Shown: piece by piece, positions 5,085 through 63,190 of the stretch
How positions within the stretch are numbered: position 1 is the stretch's first letter
Layout: each line of letters begins with the position of its first letter
DNA from: Aplectana chamaeleonis
Lineage: Eukaryota; Nematoda; Chromadorea; Rhabditida; Cosmocercidae
Assembly: GCA_029168955.1 (NCBI GenBank)
Contig: JAPDOI010000175.1
Span: forward strand, 310,001-374,000
Reading direction: 5' to 3'
Length of the DNA stretch: 64,000 nucleotides
Program-made: the position numbers and the translations under genes
The notes under the pieces: model-generated
Told to the model about the DNA's origin: nothing
The model's input: only the letters and a program-made list of their open reading frames with translations
Databases searched by the model: none

Positions 5085-5461
5085 CTATATAATACGTTTC
5101 AGGATTTTTTACGACTTTGAATAAAAAACATTTATTTCAAAAACAAACAAGGCTCACCCAACAAAATAATTTCCATCACATTCAAGGATCCTTCGCCACC
5201 GATTGGGCAGATCATGAGTTCCCGAAGTGTAAAACTCTGGCTGTTTCGAGTCGAAGTATTCTTCTAAGGCCATTTCGACTTCGTCAACGTTACTGAACTC
5301 TTTTCCAACCAGAAAGTGCTGCATCGAGCGGAACAGACGGCAGTCGGAATGGGCAAGATCAGGGCTATGCGGAGGGTAAGGAAAAACTTCCCAGCCCAGG
5401 TCCTGCAGTTTCTGTCGGGTTGTCTGAGATATGTGTGGCCGAGCATTGTCGAAGAGAAGGC
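5085..5461 (-). pseudogene. Mariner transposase 3' half (left arm)
   Basis: Read on the minus strand, an open frame ending at 5154 gives the C-terminal catalytic half of a mariner-family transposase. It contains FDNARPH (second catalytic Asp) and SPDLAHSD (third Asp) with exactly 34 residues between the two aspartates, the D34D spacing of mariner. It ends RRILECDGNYFVG. The N-terminal half, including the first catalytic Asp and the DNA-binding domain, is missing, so the protein cannot be functional. Beyond the stop, the 3' UTR runs toward 5085, where the terminal inverted repeat is eroded. The arm is joined head to head with a second, partly different mariner half. Confidence 0.85.
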
Positions 5462-5797
5462 GAACAGAAACTGCTGAACCTGGGCTGGGAAGTTCTTCCT
5501 CACCATCCATATAGCCCAGATCTCGCCCCTTCCAAATACCATATGTTCCGCTCTATGCAACCTTCCTGGATAGAACACAGCTCACTAACCATGACGAAAT
5601 CAAAATGGCCTTAAAAGAATACTTCGACTCGGAACAGCCACACTTCTACGCGTCGGGAATTCATCTGCCCAAGCGGTGGCGAAGGGTCCTTGAATGTGAT
5701 GGAAAATATTTTGTTGGGTGAGCCTTGCCTGTTTTTGAAATAAATGTTTTTTATTCAAAGTCGTGAAAGGTCCGGAAACTTTTGCATCAACCTAATA
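5462..5797 (+). pseudogene. Mariner transposase 3' half (right arm)
   Basis: This is the plus-strand counterpart of the preceding arm. LGWEVLPHHPYSPDLAP is followed by SK, where the family has SD, so the third catalytic Asp is replaced by Lys. The frame is then interrupted, and the terminal segment resumes as EYFDSEQPHFY to the stop near 5721. The mariner terminal inverted repeat is well preserved at about 5772-5795 (ending TTTGCATCAACCTAA) and is followed by TA at 5796-5797, the expected target dinucleotide. It is a dead copy. Divergence from the left arm shows the two halves came from different copies, or diverged long after duplication. Confidence 0.85.
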
Positions 5798-7954: not shown

Positions 7955-8698
7955 GACGTGGAGTACAACCTATCCCTCCCTTTTTAGCACAGTTCAAGCG
8001 TTTCGCGAAGACCAAAATTCTTTTTGAATAAGATTGCGGTTGACAGTATTATTATTTTTTTCTCTCTCTAGTTATCTCACGTTTGTCTTTAACAACGTAA
8101 TAAATTATTATTATTATTATATTCGTGTTCAGTGCCCCAAATAATCCCCCCCTGTGAGCAAAATTTTGGCTGAAAATGTCGAAAATTCAGAACCCCCCAG
8201 AAAATTTGTCGTTTCTGAATAACCCACTATAAATTGGCGGCTCGAAATTTTTTCGAATATTCTAGCGTTCGAATACCTCGGAATTTCAAATTTTCGATTA
8301 ATCGAGTTTTCGACTAACGCGGGTTTTCGAATTTTCGAATAATCGTGTAATGGAATGACTCGATGTCGCTTGTTTCAGTCGATACTAAGACTCGATGACC
8401 CGACTCGGCATGTGTATAGCGCTACCCGGTGCACGGAAAAGAATTGATAAGCTTTGAATTGTTTCTTTTCACTCTCCCACAACATTCAACATACCGTTTT
8501 TTGAAACCCCAATATGCGCTGGGATTAGTTCCTAATGAGATATTGCATGCTCACTTAGAAAAACGTTTGGCTGCCCCCGATGTTAAAGTCCTGACCGGTT
8601 GATGATGAAACTTTTGTGAGCCTAATGACTGATGGTGTTACACGACAATCCAAGGCGCATTACAGGCTCCTCACAGGTTTCAGTGAAAGACTATTTAA
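7955..8698. other. Non-coding with AT-rich TTCGAA-type repeats
   Basis: A TTATTATTATTAT run lies near 8103-8122. Degenerate TTCGAATA/TTTTCGA words at about 8245-8345 belong to the TTCGAATATTCGA repeat theme seen in longer arrays at 23150 and 28915. Confidence 0.5.
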
Positions 8699-9182
8699 AG
8701 GCAGTGTTCACGATGAAAATCGTTTTTCTGTTTTTCCACCTATCTTGAAAAGCGCCCCATGCTGATTCTAATGATGTCTCTGAAGTCGTTCGAGACCTTT
8801 TGGGAACGGAGTTATGGTCCCTCAAAAATTGAGCTAAGGAAAATGGTGGACGAGTTGTCCGAGACTTGTAACTTCCGTCTTTTGCAGCCGATCTATGCGA
8901 GCTGACCTGAGTGAAGAGAGAAGTTGAGAATGAAGGGAAGAACGGGGCTAATGATTGGAAATCATCGCTCATCTGACGATCCGAGCATTCATTTGTTCAC
9001 GTGGGTGGGCGTGTGATGCGCTTTCGGGGTTTGCCTTGCGCTCGAAGTGGCAACTTCGGGCTCTTTTGAAGCTTTTCCTGGCTTGTTTTCATGCGTTCTT
9101 TCGACGTCAGCGATACAGTATGCCCCTACACTACCCATTCCTAGTGGAAACTGAAACACATTTTTTATCGTGAACACTGCCT
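8699..9182. mobile_element. TTAA-flanked MITE, main subfamily
   Basis: It begins TTAA|AGGCAGTGTTCACGATG and ends CGTGAACACTGCCT, and is about 484 bp. The interior (ATGGTGGACGAGTTGTCC, TTCCGTCTTTTGCAGCC) is shared with the elements at 29588, 45582 and 62108, and with 9187 in inverted orientation. It is joined to the next MITE through a single TTAA at 9183-9186. Confidence 0.88.
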
Positions 9183-9186
9183 TTAA

Positions 9187-9668
9187 AGGCAGTGTCCACG
9201 ATAAAAACCATGTGTTTTTTGGTGGAGATCGGCAGCTGCGGGGCCTAGCGCCACCCTAACGTTGAAAACACCAAGAAAAATGAGCTCGGAACGGTCCCCT
9301 ACGGGCCCAAAGTTGGACACCCGTCAGCTCGTCACCCCCAGATGCACTTTCCACGCCCACTGACGTGAATAAATGAATGCTCGAGATTGTGAGATAAGCG
9401 ATAGTTTCCGATCAAAAGCCTCGTTCTTCCCTTCCTTCCCAACTTCTCTCTTTACTCAGGTCAGCTCGCATACATCGGCTGCAAAAGACGGAAGTTACAA
9501 GCCCCCGACATTTCGTCCACCATGTTGCCTTTGCTCAATCTTTGAGGGACCATAACTCCGTTCCCAGAAGATCTCGTACGATTCCAAAAACATCATTGGA
9601 ATCAGCAGGGGACCGTCTTCAAGATAGGCGAAAAAGCAGAAAAACGATTCTTGTCGTGAACACTGCCT
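9187..9668. mobile_element. TTAA-flanked MITE, abutting and inverted relative
   Basis: It begins AGGCAGTGTCCACGATA immediately after the shared TTAA and ends CGTGAACACTGCCT|TTAA (669-672). The right part is the inverse of the main subfamily interior (CTTCCGTCTTTTGC as GCAAAAGACGGAAG). The left part differs, so the element mixes two interiors. Confidence 0.85.
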
Positions 9669-10018
9669 TTAAGGTCGGTCACATACGATCCAGTAAAGGA
9701 CTCCCTTCGTATCCTCTTCAAGTTGTTAGCCCATAGGACATGGTACACCTACAGAAAAACTCCAGGCGAAGCTACCTACATGATCACGATCGCACGAAGG
9801 GAAGTGACAGGCACAGTCATGCCAATTCTGTTCCCAATAACAGATTGATGAGCTGCTAGCGACAGTTTGCGCGGTTTGCAGTTCAGAGAAGGGAGCGCAG
9901 AGTGTTGCGTAGGCAAAACAATGAGACATTCGAAGATCGTTTCAGTGATCACATACAGTCGTCACGGATCGCAGTGAAGCTTGGCTCCTCTTTGACGGTG
10001 TAGTTTGCGTTGGCTTAA
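9669..10018. other. Non-coding, nothing recognised
   Basis: This is a spacer between two MITEs with no gene signal. Confidence 0.35.
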
Positions 10019-22802: not shown

Positions 22803-23139
22803 GAGTCTTTGAGGTGAGTTAGTACATGTTTCACAGAGAATATATTTACGGGAGCTTCACTAGCGAGTTGAAACTGGAATATTGAAGCTGCTCTCATCCC
22901 ACATCCTACGAGTAATGCTTTTCAAATGGTGATAAGTGGATCAGATCGGTTCCATGGAGCATAACTTTTTTACAGGGTTGATCATATGTAAGCTGATCAT
23001 CTTACACCTTGTGAAGTTCTCAAGTGTGCGTGCCGGGTGGTCCATTCATAGCGATGATTTTTGCCCGTTCGCGTATGGTGAACGATGTCATTGTGGCACG
23101 ATTGAGGGGCAGGTGCTCTCTACTATACTTTTACATTTT

Positions 23140-23425
23140 CAGATTTTTTTCGAATATTCGACTTTTCGAATAATTCGGGATTTTCAACATTTCGAATATT
23201 CGATTTTTCGAATAAATCGTGAATTTGAACTTTTCGAATATTCGGCTTTTCGAATAATTCGAGATTTTGAACTTTTCGAATATTCGACTTTTCGAATAAT
23301 TCGATTTTGAACTTTTCGAATATTCGACTTTTCGAATAATTCGATTTTGAACTTTTCGAATATTCGATTTTTCGAATAATTCGGGATTTTGAACTTTTCG
23401 AATATTCGACTTTTCGAATAAAAAG
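23140..23425. repeat. TTCGAATATTCGA minisatellite array
   Basis: About seven tandem units of 39-42 bp occur, with core words TTCGAATATTCGACTTTTCG, AATAATTCG and GATTTTGAACTT. The cores are palindromic. The array keeps a frame open on both strands, giving Phe/Glu/Tyr-rich conceptual repeats that are almost certainly not protein. Similar arrays occur at 28912-29155, 56362-56480 and 56953-57075. Confidence 0.85.
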
Positions 23426-23814
23426 TCGACTTTTTCAATCGACTGTCGAATAATTTTTCGAATTTTTCCATTCGAGTTTTGGAGTAATACAAAAATGTCA
23501 TCGCCACTATTTTCCAGAGAAAAGCCATATTGCTTCAGCTAGCATTATCTATCTTTTTTTGGATTGAACCAAACTGTCGAATAGGGAAGCAAACAAACTA
23601 CTCACGAGACGGTTGTCAATGTCTGAAAATATACGAATTATGTAGATAACTGCTTCTCATTATTTAATTCCGATAGGAAGTGAGTACAAAACAATAACTC
23701 GGGCGTCGGTTCCACAACTAGACTAATAAAACCCACCGCCGCTGCCGTCTTAGTGGCCGAATAGACTTCGCCTCTGAAAGGCGCTGCAGCATGCAATGGA
23801 ATAGAGTTGATCAT

Positions 23815-24245
23815 GCGGCACCGTACGATCGATTCCCCTCCTTTAAATGCTGCCGCGTATTTCCACGGCGGGAGTCTATTCGGCGCGTGACGCGCTGGAA
23901 GCGCGGCGGACTATTAAAGTTCTCCGCGCGCCGTGCCGCGCCTCTAGCGCCGCCATAGTAGCACCGCCCGAACCGCCATGGCGGTTCGGCCATATCAATC
24001 AATTTTCTTCTCAGTTCAGGTACAATCTAACATCAAGAATTGCGAGACTATCCTACGGTGCCGTATACGCTAGTACAAGCGAGAAATTTCTGTGTATGTC
24101 ACAGTTAACGCCCAACTTTAACCCCCACCGCCCTGCCGATGCCGCCGGAGATTTCAGTTGTTCCTCGCGCGTCCCGTGCGTGCTGCGCGGTGAAAACTTT
24201 CATAGTCCACCGCTCGTGCAACGCTTAGGCCTAGTGCATACTTCG
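23815..24245. mobile_element. GC-rich element, CATAGTCCACCGC family
   Basis: The interior words (ACTTTCATAGTCCACCGC, GCCGCCATAGT, CGAACCGCCATGGCGGTTCG palindrome, TGTGTATGTCACAGTTAA) match the elements at 30077-30463 and 52590-53005, here in the opposite orientation. Ends are not sharply defined. Base composition is far more GC-rich than the surroundings. Confidence 0.6.
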
Positions 24246-25079
24246 TCACGGGGTCGCCGCGACAGAGTCCTCAACGACGTGAACGGTCATCGGCCGGTCG
24301 CCTTGCAAATGGAGTTGACGCAATATTTCGTCCACTACCAAATGCACACATTATATTCTTGACAAAGATCTTCTATCAATAATAGGGTCTAATGTTCTGT
24401 AATCTAAGAGCGGTTCATTTGTGGATGCTTAACACGGAGCTGGACTTTGCTTTCGTCCTGCCCCCTTTTTAACTGATTACGCTGTGTGTGAGGTGATTTT
24501 GTTCAATTTTAGATTCGACTGAAATCGTGGCGCGCGCGAAGCGCGCACTTAGATTTGGCTTTGATTCCTTACCGCGCGCAACCCGCACAGAGAGTCCACC
24601 CACTCACACTGAAGTTAGGAAAATGAGAAGTATACCATTGAAACCGCCCTACAAAGTTAGGTATGTTAGCAATTTTTCATCCCGATAGACCCCCCCCCAT
24701 CCAAACTAAAAATGTGACCCCCTAACGTGGGCGTCAAGTCCAACGCGGTCGCCGAAGCCTTCGGAGCGGCTCTTGTCAGCTCCGGCGGCTTCGGGTCCGT
24801 GACTGAGCAGAAGACGTCTCAATCCTTCTGGCGCGTGATTTGACTTTGAATATTTATATTGCGCTTGCCAAATCTTTTTTTCTACAATTTCACATTATTC
24901 AAAAGATTTCGATAATCGCTAAATCCAATGAGAGAATTTTCACAACGATTCATGACTTTGTTCACCGCAAATTCTATCCTCAACATTTTCACAACATTTC
25001 GAGAAACCGTTGATCACTGTATTCATTTAAAGGACTTCACAATATTTCAATGATTTCTTTGATCGCCAAATCTAATTTA
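24246..25079. other. Non-coding, nothing recognised
   Basis: A GC-rich patch (GTGGCGCGCGCGAAGCGCGCAC) lies near 24527-24548, and repeated CACAAC/TTTC words occur at 24880-25060. No gene is supported. Confidence 0.35.
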
Positions 25080-25696
25080 CGATTCTATCCAAAAGGGGTC
25101 TTCCAAGCGAAAGAGGTTTGGTGCGCGCCAGAAACGTTCCAACAAAAAGGGAACAATAGGAAAGTGTAGTGAGAAGAGTGTACAAAAAGTGAACAATATT
25201 TTCTCCAAGCGATATTCTCGGTCGACTCTCCTATACAGCGAAAACAGACCGTTGCGGTATTCTACTCGGAAGTACTTTGTAGTTACAAAAATAATTCCGA
25301 TCATGCGAGAACCGGTAAAAATATGCATGAATTTGTATCTGATAGTTTTAATTCATTGAAAGAGATGATGTCAAACTGGCCAGAGCAGACGGTTAGCTCC
25401 AGCTCTTGGGAAAAATGAAACAATTGAAATACATTATAAAGCAAGAGTATTTCCATATAATCTCGTGAACGAATAAAAGTCCTTTTTTTGAAAACCATTA
25501 TGTTCTTCCTCGTAAAATACCCCAACGGTTTGTTTTCGCTGTATAGAAGAGTCGACCGAGAATATCGCTTGGAGAAAATATGGTTCACATTTTGTACACT
25601 CTCCTCACTTCACTTTTCTATTGTTCCCTCTTTGTTGGAACGTTTCTGGCGCGCACCAAACCTCTTTCGCTTGGAAGACCCTTTTTGGATAGAATT
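25080..25696. repeat. Inverted repeat with 185-bp arms
   Basis: The left arm (about 25080-25266: TCTATCCAAAAGGGGTCTTC ... TCTCGGTCGACTCTCC ... GACCGTTGCGG) pairs with the right arm (about 25513-25696: CCCCAACGGTTTG ... GAGTCGACCGAGA ... GAAGACCC). About 245 bp of loop lies between. It could be a fold-back transposon or an inverted duplication. Confidence 0.75.
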
Positions 25697-26183
25697 GTTC
25701 ACTTTTTCCGAATATTAAGCAGTAATATCCCTCAAAAATATGCAACACTTATCAACCTTTTTGGACTGATACGATAATCAGTAAGCAATCAACAGACGAT
25801 TATAAGTTGCTATCGGCACAAAATTCTCACCGTAAAGAAAATTCATGACAACCAATTGATCAAGAGTAGGGTATAGAAGAAATTGAGAGCGGTGTGTTTT
25901 CATTCTCACACCGTCTTTCTCTGGAGGTGAGCGGCTGAAGCTGAACAGACTAGGGATTAGGGAAACAGCCTCACCGGTTATAAAGATATCACGATATCTG
26001 GGCCTAAACATGGAAAACTCTGGCAAAATTTTGCTACACTTTCGTGAGAATTGTGTGCCGATGGCTTATTATCAACTTGTGCAATCAACTTGTGAAGCAC
26101 ACAACAAATGAAGCGCAACTCTCATTTCGCGGCAACACGCACATATTACATGAACCGCTCTGCACTTTCCACAACGTCTTGAA

Positions 26184-26319
26184 GACGTCATTTGAAGCTC
26201 GAAGCACTTTTCAGGACGTCCCGATGACGTCATCAGAAGCCCGAAGCTTTTTTCTCGATGACGTCATCAGAAGCCCGAGGCTTCTTTCACGACGTCCCTA
26301 TGACGTCATCTGAATCCCG
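26184..26319. repeat. Tandem TGACGTCA-containing repeat
   Basis: Perfect TGACGTCA palindromes lie at 26225-26232, 26259-26266 and 26301-26308, with an AGACGTCA variant at about 26184. They are embedded in diverged 34-42-bp units reading TGACGTCATCAGAAGCCCG. The octamer equals the CREB/ATF site, but here it may simply be part of a minisatellite. Confidence 0.7.
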
Positions 26320-27903
26320 ATTGACCTAGAAATCGATTACTGACCAGCCTACATACCTCCTACCAACTTACCTGCCTGCCCAATTGATCGCCTGCTATCA
26401 TTGGCAGTGGCTACTCCTGACTCAGAAGTTTCAACCCTAGTTACATGTTTTTCTTAGTAACATGCATTGAAGGGCACAACTAACTTACTTAAAGGCAACG
26501 TACACGATAAATTGTTGATGTTCAGTTTCTTACAGATTATGATAGGTCAAGAGCTTGCTGTGACAGCAGCGTCAGGGAAAACTGCAGAAAAAGACGAGAA
26601 GGCGCTTTTTTTTAACCCTTGCTCTTTGCCGGCTGTTTGCGTGCCCTTCAATGTATGTATGTTACTGAGGAAAACATGTAACTAGGGTTGAAACTTCTGA
26701 GGAGTTCCATTAGCAGTGAATGGAAAGCGTGACGGCCTACGGCCCACGGCACACACCATGAATTTTTCTTAAGCTTTAGGGCTCACAACTTTGTTATTTG
26801 TGAACCGATTTGGCCCAAATTTTGAAAGTTGGTGTGTTTTCGCCCCACTCACGTATACCCGGAAGGGAATCTGCAAGAAATTTGTTTGAATGGTTTTATA
26901 AACTACTTTATAAAATTGTAAGTGATCACAAGGCCTAGGCAAAACCAAACCTCTCCAGCCGCTTCGCGACTGGAGCGGTACAATTTCACCACATTTGAAA
27001 AAATTTATCGACCGCCAAATCCATCAAAAGGAATTTCACAACATTTTTATGAATACCGAATCTTTGACCTTTTCCGCGGAGCCTAACCCTTTTAAAATTC
27101 TATCTATGCAGAGTTCCAAGGCACTGATCACTTATAAGATACTTCTTTCAATATGAGATAGTCATGTAAGGTGGCTGAGTGGCGTTTTATACACCGAAAA
27201 AAATTTGCCATCCATGAAAAATCTCGAGCCGATGGTGACTTACATAGTGATCAACACGCAAAAGACTCATTCTGTGCAATGTTGCATCACCATAAATCCA
27301 GAACATTTACCTACCGATGAAGTTATTCGTTTCGGCGTGGCCTTCCCAACCTTTTAAAAATCGTCCAAGAAATCTCATATTTGGGTTGACTGCCCAAATT
27401 AACCCTGGCAGCAGTCCCGAGTGGAAAATTTTAACTGAATTTGAAAATGTGGAATAGCGCTAGTTTTTGTGAAATTCAATGTCATTTTTCCATTTTCGTG
27501 ATTTTTATTCTCAAAATAGAGCGTCTCTATATGAATATCAATGCGAACGTCATTTGGAGAAGGAATAGTGTGCATTTCATTTAAAAAAATCATGAAAAAG
27601 AAATTTTGAAATGATCGAAATCATGAAGAAATCCATGGTAGTATTCAGGAAAATGAAAACCTTCGAGTAGAAGATGGTCGTTACATAAAAATATCTGAAA
27701 TGAACATATTAGTGCCTCCCAGGCCGGATTTCTGTCACTTGCGTCGCGATGTCGTAGTGCAGTGCACGACGACGTGACACACCATCCAGCTGGCGCTAAA
27801 CAGCGCGCACGTTGTGAAAAGTGTAGATTGTCCGCGACACAGCCACGACACCGTCGCGTATAGCAGCTCCCACTAGATTCGTCGCGCGCGACGACTGTCA
27901 GTG
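26320..27903. other. No recognised gene; one MITE-end relic
   Basis: TTAAAGGCAACGTACACGATA at about 26488-26508 resembles a MITE left end without a matching right end. From 27735 to 27903 the sequence is GC-rich and dyad-like (GTCGTAGTGCAGTGCACGACGAC). It resumes after the element at 28618, which suggests that the TIR element was inserted into it. Confidence 0.45.
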
Positions 27904-28617
27904 CTACTCAGAAAAATGAAAACAACTTACTTGTAACATAGTTGCCGAAAACAAGTTACTTGTTACATATCTGGGCCGATGTAAATTACTTGCGACTCCA
28001 TTCAGGTCATTTTAAGTTACATGTAACATATCGGCGGGATACTGCGTGTGGTACGCTTCCGATATGTTACATGTAACTTAAATGACTTGAGCTGAGTCGC
28101 AAGTAACTTACATCAGCTTAGATGTGTTAAAAGTAACTTGTTTTCGGTTTCTGAGAGTATACTGCGTCCGGTGCGCCTCCGATATGTCACATGTAACTTA
28201 AATGGCACAGTATAAGTCGCAAGTAACTTAATTCGGGCAAAAGATATTCCCAAAATTGATTTACGACGCACTGGCGGGGTCAGGCTTACGACTGGCGTTG
28301 CTGTTGGTTCAATTACCCAAGTTTGAGGTACTTGACCCAAACACCAGCAGGGAAGGCCCTGCACAGAATTTTTTTGCGTAGTGTGTGGTCTGGGGCGCGC
28401 ACTTTGCGTCGCGTGTCGTCTGCATTACGTCATGTCCACCCATAGTGAAAATTCAAATGCAAGTTACATGTAACATAAGTGTAACTTACATGTAATTTAA
28501 ATTTAAGTTACATGTAATATAAATGAGTGTTACATGTAATATAAATGTAAGCTACTTGAGACATTCAAGTAAGTTACATTTATATTACAAGTAACTTGTT
28601 TTGATTTTTCTGAGTAG
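27904..28617. mobile_element. TIR element carrying an SL RNA gene
   Basis: The outer ends are inverted repeats of about 37 bp: CTACTCAGAAAAATGAAAAC on the left and GTTTTGATTTTTCTGAGTAG on the right. Both can be read as TA followed or preceded by CTCAG/CTGAG, consistent with a TA target site. Subterminal zones (27940-28220 and 28455-28595) are packed with TTACATGTAA and GTTACTTGT words in both orientations. The centre (about 28225-28440) has a different composition and holds the SL1-like RNA gene. No transposase is present, so the element is non-autonomous. Confidence 0.7.
28306..28408 (+). ncRNA. SL1: SL1-like spliced leader RNA gene
   Basis: Positions 28306-28327 form a 22-nt leader exon that matches the canonical nematode SL1 sequence at all but its fifth base (C instead of T). 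It reads GGTTCAATTACCC, then AAGTTTGAG, and is followed directly by the splice donor GTA. The donor region can fold as CAAGT/ACTTG around TTGAGGT. Downstream lie a perfect hairpin GCAGGG-AAGG-CCCTGC (28347-28362), a single-stranded Sm-type site AATTTTTTTG (28367-28376) and a third stem between about 28377 and 28408. Length (about 103 nt) and order match known SL RNAs, which donate the leader to pre-mRNAs in the nucleus as an Sm snRNP. It lies singly inside a TIR element rather than beside a visible 5S rRNA gene. The promoter element was not identified, so expression is unproven. Confidence 0.85.
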
Positions 28618-28911
28618 GCGCGATTGAGTGCTGCGCTGGGCGCGGCGGTATGTATCAGTCCCTACACCGCAGCACCGTCGTTGCGACGCAAGTATGCACT
28701 AGGCCTTACGGTAAGGACTGAAAGATTCCTTAGTCGCTTGCCACATGAGTGAGTCATCATTGATAATTTCGCTCTGCCTTGATTTCGAAAAACACCTACG
28801 ATTTGCGACAGTGTGCATCCTTGGCGCGCGAACTGCTCTTGGGTCCATGGAATGTTCTTGAAAAAAATTCATTCGGTAAATTCGACTATCGAATTCATTC
28901 GAATGTTTTCA

Positions 28912-29155
28912 TAGATTTTCGAATATTCGATTTTTCGAATAATTCGGGATTTTAAACTTTTCGAATATTCGGTTTTTCGAATAATTCGGGATTTTGAACT
29001 TTTCGAATATTCGACTTTGCGAATAATTGCGAATTTTGAAGTTTTCGAATATTCGAGTTTTCGAATAATTCGAGATTTTGAACATTTCGAATATTCGACT
29101 TCTCGAATAATTCGGGAATTCGCCTTTTTCGAATATTCGACTTTTCGAATAACTC
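28912..29155. repeat. TTCGAATATTCGA minisatellite array
   Basis: About six units occur of the same 39-42-bp family as 23140-23425 (TTTTCGAATATTCGA, AATAATTCGGGATTTTGAAC). Open frames on both strands are a by-product of the unit length. Confidence 0.85.
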
Positions 29156-29587
29156 GAAGTCGACTTTTTCAGTCGAATGACTTTTCGAGTCATTCGATTC
29201 GGTCAAAGTATACTCTCTACGCAGCGAGAGTTTTCTAGCGGCGCGCGTCGCTGAAATCGCTTCATCGGTAGAGCGCGTTTACCATAAGTTCCTGGCTAAC
29301 CAAGGAATTTTTAGATTGTTATTGTTCCTCTCATGACTTTTTGAAGCCGTGGAAGCTTCCTCACAAAAGTACTGGTCTAAACCACTTCGAAAATTTTAGC
29401 CCTGGACGGTACGGTGTTACTCGTCGGAGTGAGTTTTGTGCTCATGAGTTGACCACGTTTGAAAGAATGAAAGGCAGAGTTCCGGGCGGGTCGAACCAGT
29501 AATTTCGTGAGAAAGCTTCCCCAGCTTCAAAGAATCATGAAAGGAACTACAAAAATCGACAAATGCCGTGGATTGCCAGGAACTTAA
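29156..29587. other. Non-coding, nothing recognised
   Basis: An A-box-like ATCGGTAGAGCGCG near 29264-29277 has no correctly spaced B box. No other feature was seen. Confidence 0.35.
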
Positions 29588-30072
29588 AGGCAGTGTTCAC
29601 GATGAAAATCGTTTTTCTGTTTTCCAGCCTATTTTGAAAACGGCCCCTTGCTGATTCCAATGATGTCTCTGAAATCGTACAAGACCTTCTGGGAACCATG
29701 TTATGGTCCCTCAAAGATTGAGCTATGGAAAAATGGTGGACGAGTTGTCCGAGGCTTGTAACTTCCGTCTTTTGCAGCCAATCTATGCGAGCTGACCTGA
29801 GTAAAGAGAGAAGCTGAGAATGAAGGGAAGAACGGGGCTCATGATTGTAAATCATCGCTCATCTCACGATCTCGAGCATTCATTTGTTCATGTCGGTGGG
29901 CGTGTGATGCGCTTTTGGGGTTTTCAATGCGCTCGAAGTTGCAACTTCGAACTCTTTTGGGGCTCTTCCTGGCTCGTTTTCATGCATTCTTTCGACGTTA
30001 ACGTTACAGAGTGTCCCTCCACTATCCAATCCTAGTGGAATTTCAAAAACTTTTTTCATCGTGAACACTGCC
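29588..30072. mobile_element. TTAA-flanked MITE, main subfamily
   Basis: It begins TTAA|AGGCAGTGTTCACGATG and ends CATCGTGAACACTGCC|TTAA, about 485 bp, and is very similar throughout to 62108-62592 and to 8699-9182. The right-hand TTAA (30073-30076) is shared with the next element. Confidence 0.88.
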
Positions 30073-30076
30073 TTAA

Positions 30077-30463
30077 AGGCATCTTTCATAGTCCTCACCG
30101 CAAGCGCGGGACGAGCGGTGGACTATGAAACCTTTCACCACGCGGCACACGTGGGACGAGCGGGAAGCCACTATGAAATCTCCGGCGGCACCGTCATGGC
30201 GGTGTGAGTAAAAGTCGGGCCTTAACTGTGACATGCACAGAAATTCCTGGCTTGCAATTGCATACGCGGTAACGCAGGATAGTCCCAGAATTATTTATGT
30301 TGGAGTGGACTCAAATCGAAAAGCTAGTATTGATTGAAACGGTAAAACCGCCACAGCGGTTTGGGCGGCACCGCTATGGCGGTGCTGGTAAATTTCATAG
30401 TCCACCGCCCTTCCCGCGCGTCACGCGCGTGCCACTCTTGCGGTGAAGACTATGAATGACGCC
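30077..30463. mobile_element. GC-rich element, CATAGTCCACCGC family
   Basis: It begins AGGCATCTTTCATAGTCCTC directly after the TTAA of the preceding MITE and ends GACTATGAATGACGCCT, an inverted copy. The interior contains CACCGCTATGGCGGTG palindromes and TTATGTTGGAGTGGACTCA, shared with 52590-53005. Confidence 0.72.
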
Positions 30464-37394: not shown

Positions 37395-37685
37395 AAGGGC
37401 CCGAAACAATCAAACGGGACGTCGTAGAAAGTCAGCGGGACCGAACGGGAGTGCGCCGGACGCCGTAGGAAGTGTACGGAACCCTTTTAGGAGTGCGCCG
37501 AACGCCATAGAAAGTGTGCGGGATCCATGTAAGAGCGCCGGACGCAATAGAAAGTGCACGGAACCCACTTAGGAGTGCGCCGAACGCCATAGAAAGTGTG
37601 CGCGACCTCAGGGGTAGTGCTCTGGACGCCGTAGAAAGTGTGCGGGACCCAAGTGGAAGTGCGTAGGGCGCCGTAGAAAGAGGAA
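37395..37685 (-). repeat. 42-bp minisatellite, short inverted array
   Basis: About seven diverged units occur with GTGCGGGACCCA, GGGAGTGCGCCG and ACGCC.TAGAAAGTG. Read on the opposite strand they match the 42-bp units of the larger array at 39898-40870. The array starts about 45 bp after the microsatellite. Confidence 0.85.
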
Positions 37686-38800: not shown

Positions 38801-39897
38801 GTGAATCCCCATTCATAGCTGGTCGCTTCGACTTGAAGTCGAAGCGATCAACGATACTGCCGCGATCTGAAATAGCTTCGTGCCGCGATTTCAAATCGCT
38901 CGGGCGGAAGTAATTTCGCGTGAATTAGACGGACCATTGCAGACCAAGCCGCGGGAATGAAAAAAAGCTTTTTTTCTCGGCATTCCTACTTATTTTTTCA
39001 CATTGTTGCCCTTATCTCTTAGATTAAAGAGTTTTGCACAGTTTTCAAAGAAAAAATGGTTCAAAAAGACGATTAGGTGGTCTTTGCTTGAGCAGCAACG
39101 TAAAACTAAAGCTAAAATTTCTAGTTGTTAGAAGCCGGCTTGAAATGTAATTTTTTGTTAGCCTCTTTACGTTTTATCGATAAATACTAGTTTTCCCCTT
39201 TCACATGCCGTATTGTATACGGCAGAACTGTGACGTCTGCAACTTCGCGCCACATACGCAAGGTTGTGACGAAAGATCGCGGACTAGTCGCTTCGACTAG
39301 ACGAGAACACCTACCTGGCCCATTGGGAAAGTAGTGATGAAATGAAATGGATTCGGCAAATAGCTTACTCTCATTCCATTTGATATTGGCTGATAAAACA
39401 AGTTTGATCAAGCTTCGGCAGATAAGAACTTATTTTCATCCTCTTCCTTCACCTCGATAGTGTATCGTCCACTCCTTGCGTAGTCGCCTCACTGCAAGAC
39501 CGCCCGCAGCACGCTCGCTCGCTTGCCACTTCATCCGTTGATCTTGCACGTGTCCATCGATGGCGCGGCATGCGAGCTGGCTACGTGTATAGGCTAATGC
39601 GCACGGAGTTCCCTATACGTTTCCGAGATATTCCGCTCTGATTCCACTGAAAACTTGCCGGTAACCTATCCGCCTATCGGCAAGCTGCGCAAGGAGTGCG
39701 CCGACTAGGTTCCCAGGGGAAGATAAGATTAGTCCACCTAGCACATATACCTTTTTGCTTCGGAAAGCTTCCAATAAACCGCTATGCAGCAGTTCGCAGT
39801 GTCTGCGGTCATGCAGGCAATCATCTTGCCACGAACTTATATAACAACGTGTACTTGTAACATTTAAATTAACCCTCTGTACACTCCTGATTGGGTT
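38801..39897. other. No recognised gene
   Basis: A small dyad GCTTCGACTTGAAGTCGAAGC lies at about 38825-38845. No coding family was seen. Confidence 0.35.
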
Positions 39898-40870
39898 CCG
39901 CACACTTTTCCCGGCGCTTGGCGCATTCCCAGATGGGTACCGTCCACTTTGCCATGCGCTCTGTGCCCTCCCAGTTGTGCCCTTTTCTCCTTCTCCGACA
40001 CTCTGCCCACTCACAGTCTGGTCCCGCACACTTTTCCCGGCACTTGGCGCATTCCCAGTAGGGTCCAACACACTTTTCCCGGCGCTCGGCGCACTCCAAG
40101 TTGGGTCCAACACTTTTTTCTCGGCGCTCGGCGCACTCCCAGTTGGGTCCAACACATTTTTCCCGGCGCTCGGCGCACTCCCAGTTGGGTCCAACACACA
40201 AATCTCTGCGCTTGGCGCACTCCCAATCGAGTCCCGCACACGTACTCTGGCGATCTGCTCACTTCTACTTGGGTCCCACACACTTACTCCGGCGTTTGGC
40301 GCATTCCCAGTTGGGTCCCATCAACTTTTATCGGCGCTCTGCGGACTCCCAGTTGGGTCCAACACTTTTTTCCCGGCGCTCGGCGCACTCCCAGTTGGGT
40401 CCCACACACTTTTCTCGGCGCTCGGCGCACTCCTAGTTGAGCCCCACACACTTTTCTCGGCGTTCGGCGCACTCCCAGTTGGGTCCCAAACACTTTTCCC
40501 GGCGCTCGGCGCACTCCCAGTTGGGTCCCACACACTTTTCCCGGCGCTTGGCGCACTCCCAGTTGGGTCCCGTACCCTTTCGCCGGCGCTCTGCGGACTC
40601 CCAGTTGGGTCCAACACTTTTTTTCCGGCGCTCGGCGCACTCTCAGTAGGGTCCCACACACTTTTCTCGGCGCTCGGCGCACTCCTAGTTGGGTCCCACA
40701 CACTTTTCTCGGCGCTCGGCGCACTCCCAGTTTTGTCCAGCGCACTTTTCCCGGCGATCTGCTCACTCCGAGTTGTGTCCCGCACACGTACTCCGACATT
40801 TGGCGCATTTCCAGACGGGTGGCGCCCACTTTCCCTGGCGCTCTACTCACAGCTGGGTCTCCCCACACAC
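39898..40870 (+). repeat. 42-bp minisatellite, about 23 units
   Basis: The units read CACTTTTCCCGGCGCTCGGC, then GCACTCCCAGTTGGGTCC and CACA. Each is 42 bp, exactly 14 codons, so several frames on both strands stay open (up to 349 codons, for example repeats of PALGALPVGSNTFF). Because all frames are equally open and the unit is a multiple of three, I treat this as non-coding. Variants include units with CTCTGCGGAC and GATCTGCTCAC. Confidence 0.93.
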
Positions 40871-45577: not shown

Positions 45578-45581
45578 TTAA

Positions 45582-46072
45582 AGACAGTGTTCAAGAGAAA
45601 AATCCCTTTTCTGTTTTTTTGCCTTTCTTGAAAACGGTCCCACTCCGATTCCAATGGTGTCTCTGGAATCGTACAAGACCTTCTGGAAACGGAGTTATGG
45701 TCCCTCAAAAATTGAGCAAGGGAAAATGGTGGACGAGTTGTCCAAGGCTTGTAACTTCCGTCTTTTGCAGCCAATGTGTGCGAGCTGACCTGAGTAAAAA
45801 GAGAAGTTGAGAATGAAGGGAAGAACGGGGCTTTTGATCGGAAACCATCGCTCAACTCACGATTTCGGGTGTTCCTTTGTTCACGTCGAGGGGCGGAAAA
45901 AGGCCGGACTTACCCAAATCGGCGGGGTTTGCCCACTTTTCTAAGCCGTCTGCGGTATCCGGGTAGCTTTCCGTCCCGTTTCTTCGACATTGTTCTTTGT
46001 TCTGCTTCCGAGAGCTAAGAGAAGCGTTTGACATGGAAAAATCGTGGATGAAGCTTATCGTGAACAGTGCCT
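45582..46072. mobile_element. TTAA-flanked MITE, main subfamily
   Basis: It begins AGACAGTGTTCAAGAGA after the shared TTAA and ends TTATCGTGAACAGTGCCT|TTAA. The left two-thirds match 8699-9182 closely; the right third differs. Confidence 0.85.
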
Positions 46073-59787: not shown

Positions 59788-61197
59788 TAAAAAACTCACA
59801 AACTTCCGCAAGACGGGTTATCCAGTGCCGAACCATCTTGTTTCAAAGTTCGACCCATAGTAAGTAACGTGGGTGGACCTACTGATAGGGTTTCTTGGTT
59901 TCTAAACTTGGTTCTCGTCCAATTATTCAAATTCTTTCCTGCTCACCTTCCTAATACTAATTCATTCCTACAAAAATTGCGGGACGCAACACTGGAGGAA
60001 GAGTACGTTATGGAGTCCTTTGATGTAACATCTCTGTACACCAACGTCTCTAACGAAGGTGCTCTGCAAGCTGTTTTTGAAATCCTTACCCAGCATCAGG
60101 CTAACATAAACTTGTTTGGGCTCACCATTTCACAAATCATGTATCTACTGGATAGCTGTCTAAAATGTAACATTTTCAGATGGTCTGGGAACTACTACAA
60201 ACAGGTCAGAGGGCTGGCGATGGGTCAGCGTCTTGCCCCAGTACTCGCTGTGGCATTTATGTCGAAGATTGAGGAGCCCGTACTGGGTCGCAGGCCGCTT
60301 ATCTACTGCAGGTACATTGACGACTGCTTTATTGTGTGTTCTACTCAATTAGAGATGGACACTTGTTTCGAATTGCTCAATCAGCAATCCGAAAACATAA
60401 AGTTAACTCGTGAAGTACCTACAGATAGTTGGCTCTCTTTCCTGAACGTTCAGGTTCAACTTTCCTGAGGGTTAGTAAAAACTAGGTGGTACAGGAAACC
60501 AACAAATAAAAACATCATAATTCATTTTACCTCGGCCCACCCATCCAAAACCAAGCATGCAGTTGTTGGCAATATGTTTCGTACTGCCCTTGCAGTCTCT
60601 TCGGATAGCGAGCAGAAGAGTGTTTCTGCAAATCTAGCCCGCCGCATAGCATTCGAGAACGGTTATCCATCGATAGATGGCCGCCATACGGGACGCGCAC
60701 GGCGGACCGCCCTCTCAGATGTTCACGAGGAAGAAAGGACGAAAGTAGCGTTCCGCGCTCCTTTCGTCTCGGACCACCTCACTTCAGCGATCAGGGCCTG
60801 TATCCGTAGGGCTGATCTTCAAGAAATGGTCTCCGTTGTCGAAATCCCTCCTGCCAACTTTAGGGGGCGATTAGTTCGCAATCGCTTGTATGACCGGGTC
60901 TGCCTTACTCCCTCCTGTGTAATTTGCCCATTTGGTAAGGAGGGTGACTGCATGGCCTCTGGAGTGGTATATCGCATAAATTGTCGTCTGTGTGGGGAAG
61001 ATTTTATAGGGGAGACTGGGAGACCACTATGTGTCAGGATTAAGGAGCACATGGACGGACTGAACAAGTCCAAATTGTCTACTCCGCTTGGGGAACACAG
61101 GGTGCGCAGTCACGACAACAATTGCATTTCAGTTGCTGTTACGATCTTGGCACGTGAAAGCGAAATCTCAGCGCGCAGAACTCTTGAAGCCTTTTGA
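59788..61197 (+). pseudogene. Penelope-like element: RT plus GIY-YIG, 5' truncated
   Basis: The frame opens after TAA at 59788 with KTHKLPQDG and VRPIVSNVGGPT, typical of a Penelope-like reverse transcriptase fingers region. Then come FDVTSLYTNV (motif A), GLAMGQRLAPVLAVAF (motif B), YCRYIDDCFIV (motif C with the catalytic DD) and FLNVQV. A single in-frame TGA at 60466-60468 interrupts the protein. The same frame resumes as TRWYRKPTNKN and SAHPSKTKHAVVGNMFRTAL and runs to 61197. The C-terminal part has spaced cysteines (CLTPSCVICPFGKEGDC) and a GIY-YIG-type nuclease core, VYRINC...FIGETGRPLCVRIKEH. The part before KTHK is missing. Such elements copy RNA and insert using the nuclease. It is recent in appearance but not functional as it stands. 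Confidence 0.9.
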
Positions 61198-61610: not shown

Positions 61611-62107
61611 GCTTCAACCACCGAATACCACAAGGAGAAAGGATGATTTGGTGACTCAATACGGTTCAAATACGGTCATTTTAACTCGTTTTTGACGCTT
61701 GCAACTTAGTGAGGGCTCTTCTAGGGCCTGCACGAACCCACTAATCTAGTTATCTCGACAACTTTTGCGAGCGTGCCTGCTGCTTTTAAAGAGGCAGCCA
61801 TGCAACATCGTCATTTGAAGGAATCGAAAATTCATTTCCTCCGCAAGAAATCGGTTGGTGGATCTTCCATGACTTCTCATTGAAGAACCGAATAGTTAGT
61901 TCATTTCTATCACCAAGGCTTAATTAAGTGAAGTTCATGGCATACCCTTTTGCGCGGTAATCACCAGGTTCAACTTGTGAGCTCCGCAAACTGAGAGAAC
62001 AAGATCATTCCTTCGTATGTCCTCATACTACGTCTCTGATTTGAGCCTTCAGCAATCCATAAAAAGCCCTGCATACGACCCATCATCACTGAAGCTCCAT
62101 CGCTTAA
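61611..62107. other. MITE right end, otherwise nothing recognised
   Basis: TTATCTCGACAACTTTTGCG, GCGTGCCTGCTGC and TTTTAAAG at about 61748-61790 form the right end of a CACGCTCG-family MITE. No gene signal is present. Confidence 0.4.
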
Positions 62108-62592
62108 AGGCAGTGTTCACGATGAAAATGGTTTCTCTGTTTTTCCGCCTATCTTGAAAACGGCCCCATGCTGATCCCAATGATGTCTCTGAAATCGTAC
62201 AAGACCTTCTGGGAACAGAGTTGTAGTCCCTAAAGATTGAGCTATGGAAACATGGTGGACGAGTTGTCCGAGGCTTGTAACTTCCGTCTTTTGCAGCCGA
62301 TCTATACGAGCTGACCTGAGTAAATAGAGAAGCTGAGAATGAAGGGAAGAACGGGGCTAATGATTGAAAATCATCGCTCATCTCACGATCTCGAGCACTC
62401 ATTTGTTCACGTCGGTGGGCGTGTGATGCGCTTTATGGTTTTCAATGCGCTCGAAGTTGCAACTTCGGGCTCTTTTGGGGCTCTTCCTGGCTCGTTTTCA
62501 TGCGTTCTTTCGACGTTTACGTTACAGAGTGTCCCTCCACTACCCAATCCTGCTGTAAATTTCGAAAACTTTTTTCATCGTGAACACTGCCT
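62108..62592. mobile_element. TTAA-flanked MITE, main subfamily
   Basis: It begins TTAA|AGGCAGTGTTCACGATG and ends CATCGTGAACACTGCCT|TTAA, 485 bp. It is nearly identical in layout to 29588-30072, indicating recent amplification. It lies against the downstream end of the hAT-like fragment. Confidence 0.88.
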
Positions 62593-62596
62593 TTAA

Positions 62597-63190
62597 GAGT
62601 GAGACCAGGCGACTTATAAAGAAACTCCATGAGGTCATCGAGAGACCAGGCTGCTGTGCCCAGGGGGTCAGTCCAACCAAATTCTCTCGTAAGGCATGTA
62701 AGATGTCTTCTCCAGATTCACTTTCGACTTCTACGAGGGCGAGATGAAAGGTCATGGGACGATTGACGGGAGATACAGTTCTCAGCAAAAGACAATCCAT
62801 TTCACTACATTACCTGTGGTACGACATGTTAGAAGTGAGATGAGCAAGTCGTTATCGATGACATATTCGAGGAGATCATATTTCATATTAATGGCGAACT
62901 GCTTGATCATACGTGTAGCACTTCTTGCGTCGTAATGAGCTTCTGGAGCAATCGCTCCCGTCTTCATTGTTGCTATAAGGAGCGGAAATTGTTTGGCAAA
63001 AGAAAGTCCCTCCTTGTGTATGCTGTAGCAGTTGATGTAATTGTTGCTCCTGTTGCTTTCTTCAGTTCGATGTTCTGGTGGTCCAAGAACCTAAAGTGGA
63101 TAACTTTGTGCTGGCCACGCAAATCATGCCGCCTGAGATTTTGTCGCCACATCTTCATGCCTGCTCTGGCACTGGGGAGCTCCTAGCCCA
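62597..63190 (-). pseudogene. hAT-like (DUF4371/KIAA1586-type) transposase fragment
   Basis: Three minus-strand frames read in order. The first has RQNLRRHDLRGQHKVI, resembling the end of a zinc finger with an LxxH...H pattern. The second runs from YSIHKEGLSFAKQFPLL through GAIAPEAHYDARSATRMI and FAINMKYDLLEYVIDNDLLI to SLLTCRTTG, ending at a CACAG|GTAATG donor-like site. The third, EVESESGEDILHALRENLVG, matches the gEDIl..L...L pattern that follows in hAT-related domesticated and transposon proteins. The catalytic residues and C-terminal dimerisation region are missing where the MITE begins. It is either a truncated hAT-like element or a broken derived gene. Assignment is by motif impression only. 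Confidence 0.4.

Follow-up and report, generated by a model that had tools for sequence, protein, structure and literature searches.

SL RNA gene cargo on two families of non-autonomous DNA transposons, amplified at two levels, in the nematode Aplectana chamaeleonis

Results

The stretch of DNA analysed here, called the window, comprises 64,000 nucleotides of contig JAPDOI010000175.1 of Aplectana chamaeleonis. It contains an SL RNA gene-like core within a foldback element that has terminal inverted repeats (TIRs), and this element is itself nested in a larger, hAT-like one (Table 1).

Table 1. Position of the SL RNA gene-like core, the TIR element that carries it and the host element, in window coordinates.
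Feature	Position	Strand	Remark
Host hAT-like element, 6.09 kb	23124..29212	+	ends TATACTTT...AAAGTATA
Left 8-bp target duplication of host element	23116..23123	n/a	CTCTCTAC
Right 8-bp target duplication of host element	29213..29220	n/a	CTCTCTAC
Family 1 SL-carrying TIR element, foldback arms	27907..28614	+	708 bp, CTCAG...CTGAG
Left TIR of family 1 element	27907..27940	+	complementarity and end-pattern scan
Right TIR of family 1 element	28581..28614	-	complementarity and end-pattern scan
Left target duplication TA of family 1 element	27905..27906	n/a	sequence and duplications of the family
Right target duplication TA of family 1 element	28615..28616	n/a	sequence and duplications of the family
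Two 72-nt direct repeats in left arm	28039..28230	+	82% alike, spaced 120 nt
Upstream promoter-like element TACGACGCACT	28262..28272	+	44 nt before SL; same as in 5S-linked SL1 gene L124 (-45)
Spliced-leader exon GGTTCAATTACCCAAGTTTGAG	28306..28327	+	SL1 with T5C
SL RNA-like gene	28306..28405	+	SL, donor GT, stem II, Sm-like site, stem III
Stem II	28347..28362	+	drawn fold
Sm-like site AATTTTTTTG	28367..28376	+	drawn fold
Stem III	28380..28403	+	drawn fold

The first-pass annotation of this DNA had noticed an SL gene between matching inverted ends, and this observation is confirmed. The 37-nt arms at 27904-27940 and 28581-28617 are 92% complementary, and within the window a 22-nt end pattern, with up to three mismatches allowed, is found at these two places only (mean of 100 shuffles, 0.00). 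The unit had been given as 714 bp flanked by TA; the inverted ends stand, but the true unit is the 708 bp from CTCAG to CTGAG. Its foldback arms are made of AAGTTACATGTAAC-type repeats around a core of about 200 bp. The description of this core as compositionally distinct is true in relation to the arms (GC 0.52 as compared to 0.39 and 0.24), but not in relation to the outer flanks, 0.58 and 0.52. The longest stop-free frame inside the element is 103 aa. It has inverted ends, many copies and, wherever these lie in unrelated sequence, a duplication of constant length, and it is without a transposase of its own, which are the properties of a MITE, or non-autonomous TIR element. We refer to it and its relatives as family 1.

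The window also holds other repeats and mobile sequences. A stop at 60466-60468 divides the stretch 59791-61194 into an RVT_1 reverse-transcriptase frame and a second frame with relatives named GIY-YIG; the best named relatives of this second frame (60469-61194) are found in Ancylostoma, Nippostrongylus, Heligmosomoides, Haemonchus and Necator, and we take the whole to be Penelope-like. A weak DDE_3 match on the minus strand at 5157-5552 (E 0.0025, below the cut-off) is possibly the remnant of a transposase. A dispersed repeat of about 495 bp, 88–93% identical, is located at 8695-9191, 29583-30078 and 62103-62597, with partial copies at 1746-2026, 9336-9676 and 45578-45895. GC-rich 42-bp tandem arrays lie at 39891-40787 and 37448-37680, and the long reading frames in these are probably due to chance.

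The SL of the element, together with the GT that follows, is the only exact 3' part of SL1 within the window. As in an SL1 RNA gene, a 22-nt SL is followed by a GT donor, with T5C as the single substitution. In Rfam there were no matches in the window at the gathering threshold; on the core the SL1 model recognised stem-loop I only, at 20 bits (E 0.23) as compared to a gathering score of 75. A fold with three stems can be drawn for the window copy, with stem I over the SL (one mismatch) followed by stem II, the Sm-like site and stem III. The predicted energy is -27.4 kcal/mol for the drawn fold and -33.0 kcal/mol for the fold of minimum energy; in the latter stems II and III are retained along with a version of stem I, and the Sm-like stretch is paired as well. 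Changing the folded length changes the predicted fold of the core.

Copies of the element were sought in the assembly, 1.04 Gb in 2087 contigs. With the window copy as query the best 40 of 3765 first-look candidates were scored, and with a diverged copy (L047) the best 40 of 4074; unscored candidates were not counted as copies. All scored candidates were near full length in both searches, two places being common to them, and they represent at least 78 distinct places, with the window included and one copy split. The 39 other copies from the first search were fetched, as were 20 of the 38 that only the second had given. Among the 39, 34 share the flanks of the window (L040 and L044 partly) and five have unrelated flanks, which with the 20 from the second search gives 25 independent copies, all with the unit CTCAG...CTGAG or a near variant of it.

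A direct repeat of 2 bp borders 21 of these 25 copies and one of 3 bp borders none; the duplications are TT (7), TA (7), AA (2), TG (2), AG, AT and CA (1 each), and the copies L045, L062, L063 and L067 are without one. When the right ends were re-dealt 10000 times, the mean was 6.3 matches and the maximum 14, as compared to the 21 observed. None of the 300 pairs of copies has a 12-mer in common in the flanks, on either side. The suggestion that the element has moved and spreads its SL core was borne out by these 25 copies, and it is well supported that this has happened many times. Of the expectation that copies would be found at several loci with TA duplications, the loci and the 2-bp duplication hold, but the duplication is not specific for TA. 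Since 14 of the 21 duplications are not TA, an assignment to Tc1/mariner, which duplicates TA only, was dropped. One ungapped paralogous match (49/65) in L053 across the junction of L076 is a weak candidate for an empty site, and two other matches spanning a junction fall within the query's own locus.

Ends that occur only once, or other copies that lack the SL gene, would have counted against the reading of the first-pass annotation. The outcome was the opposite: complete copies that include the SL region were found in large numbers, and the SL-like stretch is present in all 59 aligned copies (L044, in which the right part is missing, was omitted from the alignments). The mean difference is 2.1% between the nested copies, those with the flanks of the window, and 7.5% between the dispersed ones, so the nested amplification is probably the younger. 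The copy closest to the nested lineage, L035 (3.2%), is nevertheless located elsewhere and has its own duplication. The nested lineage is also better formed at the Sm-like site and in stems II and III; in the dispersed copies these stems are weaker, and GAATTTT of the window copy is replaced by GCATTTT in most of them. At one place (L103, G000:C1:5168200-5170500) the SL core is tandemly expanded within a family 1 element, with five exact copies of the SL with T5C, mostly about 370 bp apart.

The shared flanks are those of the host element in which the window copy is nested, and the spread of this host has amplified the SL element a second time, as seen in 34 of the 39 other best-matching copies. 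The window and 12 copies fetched with long flanks all have perfect 8-bp duplications of the host (13/13), with T at position 2 in 13/13 and A at position 7 in 12/13. Target duplications of 8 bp of the form nTnnnnAn are characteristic of the hAT superfamily, and in this respect the element at 23124-29212 is hAT-like. The host occurs in two forms, one of 6.1 kb (8/13, the window included) and one of about 3.7 kb (5/13), and in both the nested SL element occupies one and the same position. A comparison showed that the short form has only window 26900-29212 in common with the 6.09-kb element. The duplications are shared with hAT elements, but a Pfam search of six selected reading frames, three from the host element of the window and three from short-form copies, found no domain and no transposase. 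Tandem arrays of a 42-bp TTCGAA-rich unit (23147-23421 and 28916-29156) are situated inside both host ends, in the same orientation.

Genome-wide, the exact SL with T5C (C-type) followed by GT occurs 1582 times (755 + 827) and the canonical SL1 followed by GT 749 times (368 + 381); the reversed-pattern controls both gave 0. The C-type SL not followed by G was matched 137 times, a count compatible both with use of the variant on mRNAs and with no such use. The places sampled were among the 100 that head each list, which runs contig by contig, and are thus not a random sample; they were assigned to families by eye, so the family shares are rough. With this reservation, the 19 C-type places divide into eight of family 1 (one of which, L106, is altered upstream), ten of a second family and one of neither (L113), and the 23 canonical places into two, seven and 14. 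The idea that transposons explain the dispersed SL copies thus applies to most of the sampled C-type places (18/19), but not to most of the canonical ones. Judged from its sequence, family 2 is a second TIR family with the same cargo. Its ends are CTCTGAGAGTTTTG...CAAAACTCTCAGAG, with a single mismatch in L082; its foldback arms consist of GCCGCGAAATA repeats, and an SL with the GTAC-rich start of an intron part occupies the centre. Duplications of 2 bp, TA and AA, were seen by eye in both of the two copies that were seen whole.

For the origin of the core we looked for true SL1 genes in the assembly. In a profile search with RF00198, 50 of 256011 candidates were scored; there were three matches among these best 50, and none was above the cut-off. 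Two of the matches were cut out (L123 and L124); both are SL1 genes, and each is followed at about 290 bp by a 5S rRNA gene. In L124 TACGACGCACT is found 45 nt before the SL, and in L123 the agreement at this position is 9/11 letters, which 56 of 4000 shuffles reached. Both the window copy and the consensus of family 1 match the L124 motif at 11/11 nt, 44 nt before the SL, a result that was reached by 0 of 4000 shuffles. One comparison of the two families used copies with exact SL and GT only, 21 of family 1 and 16 of family 2, with L090 and L106 omitted for their altered upstream sequence. An upstream element at a fixed distance is a property of SL1 RNA genes, and its position and conservation suggest that the motif is a proximal promoter element of the snRNA type. 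For family 2 the upstream likeness to L124 is weak (reached by 542/4000 shuffles at 11 nt and 133/4000 at 14 nt).

GTACTT directly after the SL is common to the element and the true SL1 gene. Beyond it, the intron part has no significant likeness to true SL1 RNA in a shuffle test: of 2000 shuffles, 162 reached the score of the window copy, 675 that of family 1 and 969 that of family 2. Homology of the intron body was dropped on this ground. The promoter-like element, the SL and the donor match a real SL gene, which implies that parts of such a gene sit in the transposon.

Discussion

That two families of non-autonomous DNA transposons carry SL RNA gene cargo, with amplification at two levels, is a real and unusual finding. 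We consider it highly probable that a non-autonomous DNA transposon captured parts of an SL1 RNA gene and dispersed them, and that a hAT-like host then amplified them again.

The first-pass annotation knew of no described case of an SL-carrying transposon. The open-access literature that was searched, outside which most subscription papers lie, agrees with this: neither an SL RNA gene on a DNA transposon nor the letters of the C-type SL were found in it. The available text of PMC9071541, PMC6362198 and PMC7593179 has nothing on such a transposon. Searches with the SL and end patterns in a collection of viral contigs, and with the SL pattern in one of genome contigs, gave no matches.

Some known systems are nevertheless similar in part. 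According to the available text of PMC3169594, the Tm1 Mutator/Foldback elements of root-knot nematodes have composite, internally repeated inverted ends, and one Tm1 group has a non-protein motif, a histone hairpin, between the arms. Both Tm1 and family 1 are thus nematode elements with internally repeated inverted ends and room for non-protein cargo, but Tm1 has other ends, duplications of 8-10 bp (mostly 9 bp), a predicted Mutator-like transposase, and a cargo that is not an SL RNA gene (PMC3169594). The core resembles the nematode 5S-linked SL1 genes, as described in the accessible part of PMC1657053, in its SL, donor and upstream element; those genes, however, adjoin 5S rRNA, whereas the core is enclosed by transposon ends and occurs at dispersed places. 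In flatworms, the sections available of PMC12582326 describe partial leaders associated with mobile elements, which were discarded from the SL-RNA set of that study. SL sequence is spread by mobile DNA there as well, but those leaders were attributed to retroelements (PMC12582326), and here it is a DNA transposon with a promoter-like element and a gene core.

Could the cargo genes be functional and kept, with the elements as a main source of SL RNA, or as a specialised source of a variant one? We find this possible although unlikely. The window copy can be folded, in the prediction, into three stems around the Sm-like site, but this site is degraded in the dispersed copies. An exact SL with GT is retained in 36 of the 59 copies (24/34 nested, 12/25 dispersed), the consensus SL exon and donor are identical between nested and dispersed copies, and the same cargo is found in two families. 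Shared substitutions in the dispersed copies are less frequent in SL+GT, at 0.017 per cell, than in the 60 nt upstream (0.062) and the rest of the RNA (0.051), but in the nested copies they are not (0.012 as compared to 0.002-0.009 elsewhere). When the 59 copies were examined for selection acting on the SL once inserted, the rate of singleton substitutions in SL+GT was not significantly lower than elsewhere (p 0.26 nested, 1.0 dispersed). Ordinary 5S-linked SL1 genes are also present in the genome. These patterns fit with copies that are passengers, decaying after insertion, some of which may be transcribed.

Another explanation is that a MITE caught the retrocopy of a trans-spliced mRNA, so that the SL of the element would be an mRNA 5' end and not part of an SL RNA gene. 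Such retrocopies do seem to exist in this genome, and in dinoflagellates copies of SL-tagged mRNAs are reportedly attributed to retroposition. At 14 of the canonical places (L085-L088, L092-L096, L098-L102) SL1 is joined to unrelated downstream sequence. Two of these, L100 and L102, are identical at 171/172 nt from the SL onward, through a 5' leader and an ATG frame, with unrelated sequence upstream, and look like retrocopies of one mRNA; the remaining 12, like them in neither family among the 23 sampled, are presumed to be of the same kind. If so, retrocopying would spread SL sequence by a route of its own. A retrocopy would, however, be without the promoter of the SL RNA, and the element has TACGACGCACT at -44, much like L124, while the 14 presumed retrocopies reach at most 7/11 of it. 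The SL of the element is moreover followed by the donor GT and a stretch that is able to pair back on the SL. An origin from an mRNA copy was rejected on the upstream element and is very improbable; derivation of the core from an SL RNA gene is well supported by these comparisons. That all copies instead stem from one segmental or satellite duplication, as the shared flanks of most best matches and the tandem amplification in L103 might suggest, is hardly credible at all, since those flanks are themselves a TIR element with perfect 8-bp duplications and the 25 other copies lie in unrelated flanks, 21 of them with a 2-bp duplication.

Capture by a transposon would then have proceeded as follows. 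A short MITE or foldback transposon would have taken up, at the DNA level, an SL1 RNA gene, including the upstream promoter element, the donor and the start of the intron part. A transposase acting in trans would recognise ends of the CTC[A/T]GA type and move the element with a 2-bp target duplication, and every move would deposit another copy of the SL RNA gene. One copy would have landed in the hAT-like element, and the mobility of this host would have multiplied it a second time. Single copies would decay after insertion, most of them probably being SL RNA pseudogenes by now, and young intact copies may still be transcribed and yield a variant spliced leader with T5C. A more far-reaching view is that, on a large scale, SL cores with their promoter are carried by two or more TIR families whose ends are related; these families would feed the genome with dispersed and variant SL genes, perhaps exploit the SL promoter or trans-splicing themselves, and compete with 5S linkage as a source of SL diversity. 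This we regard as speculative and rather doubtful.

To our knowledge, the dispersal of SL RNA genes and the gain of new leader sequences have not been explained. A DNA transposon that carries an SL gene with a promoter-like element offers a direct and testable mechanism. Another consequence is that transposon cargo and retrocopies can inflate the number of SL genes counted in nematode assemblies.
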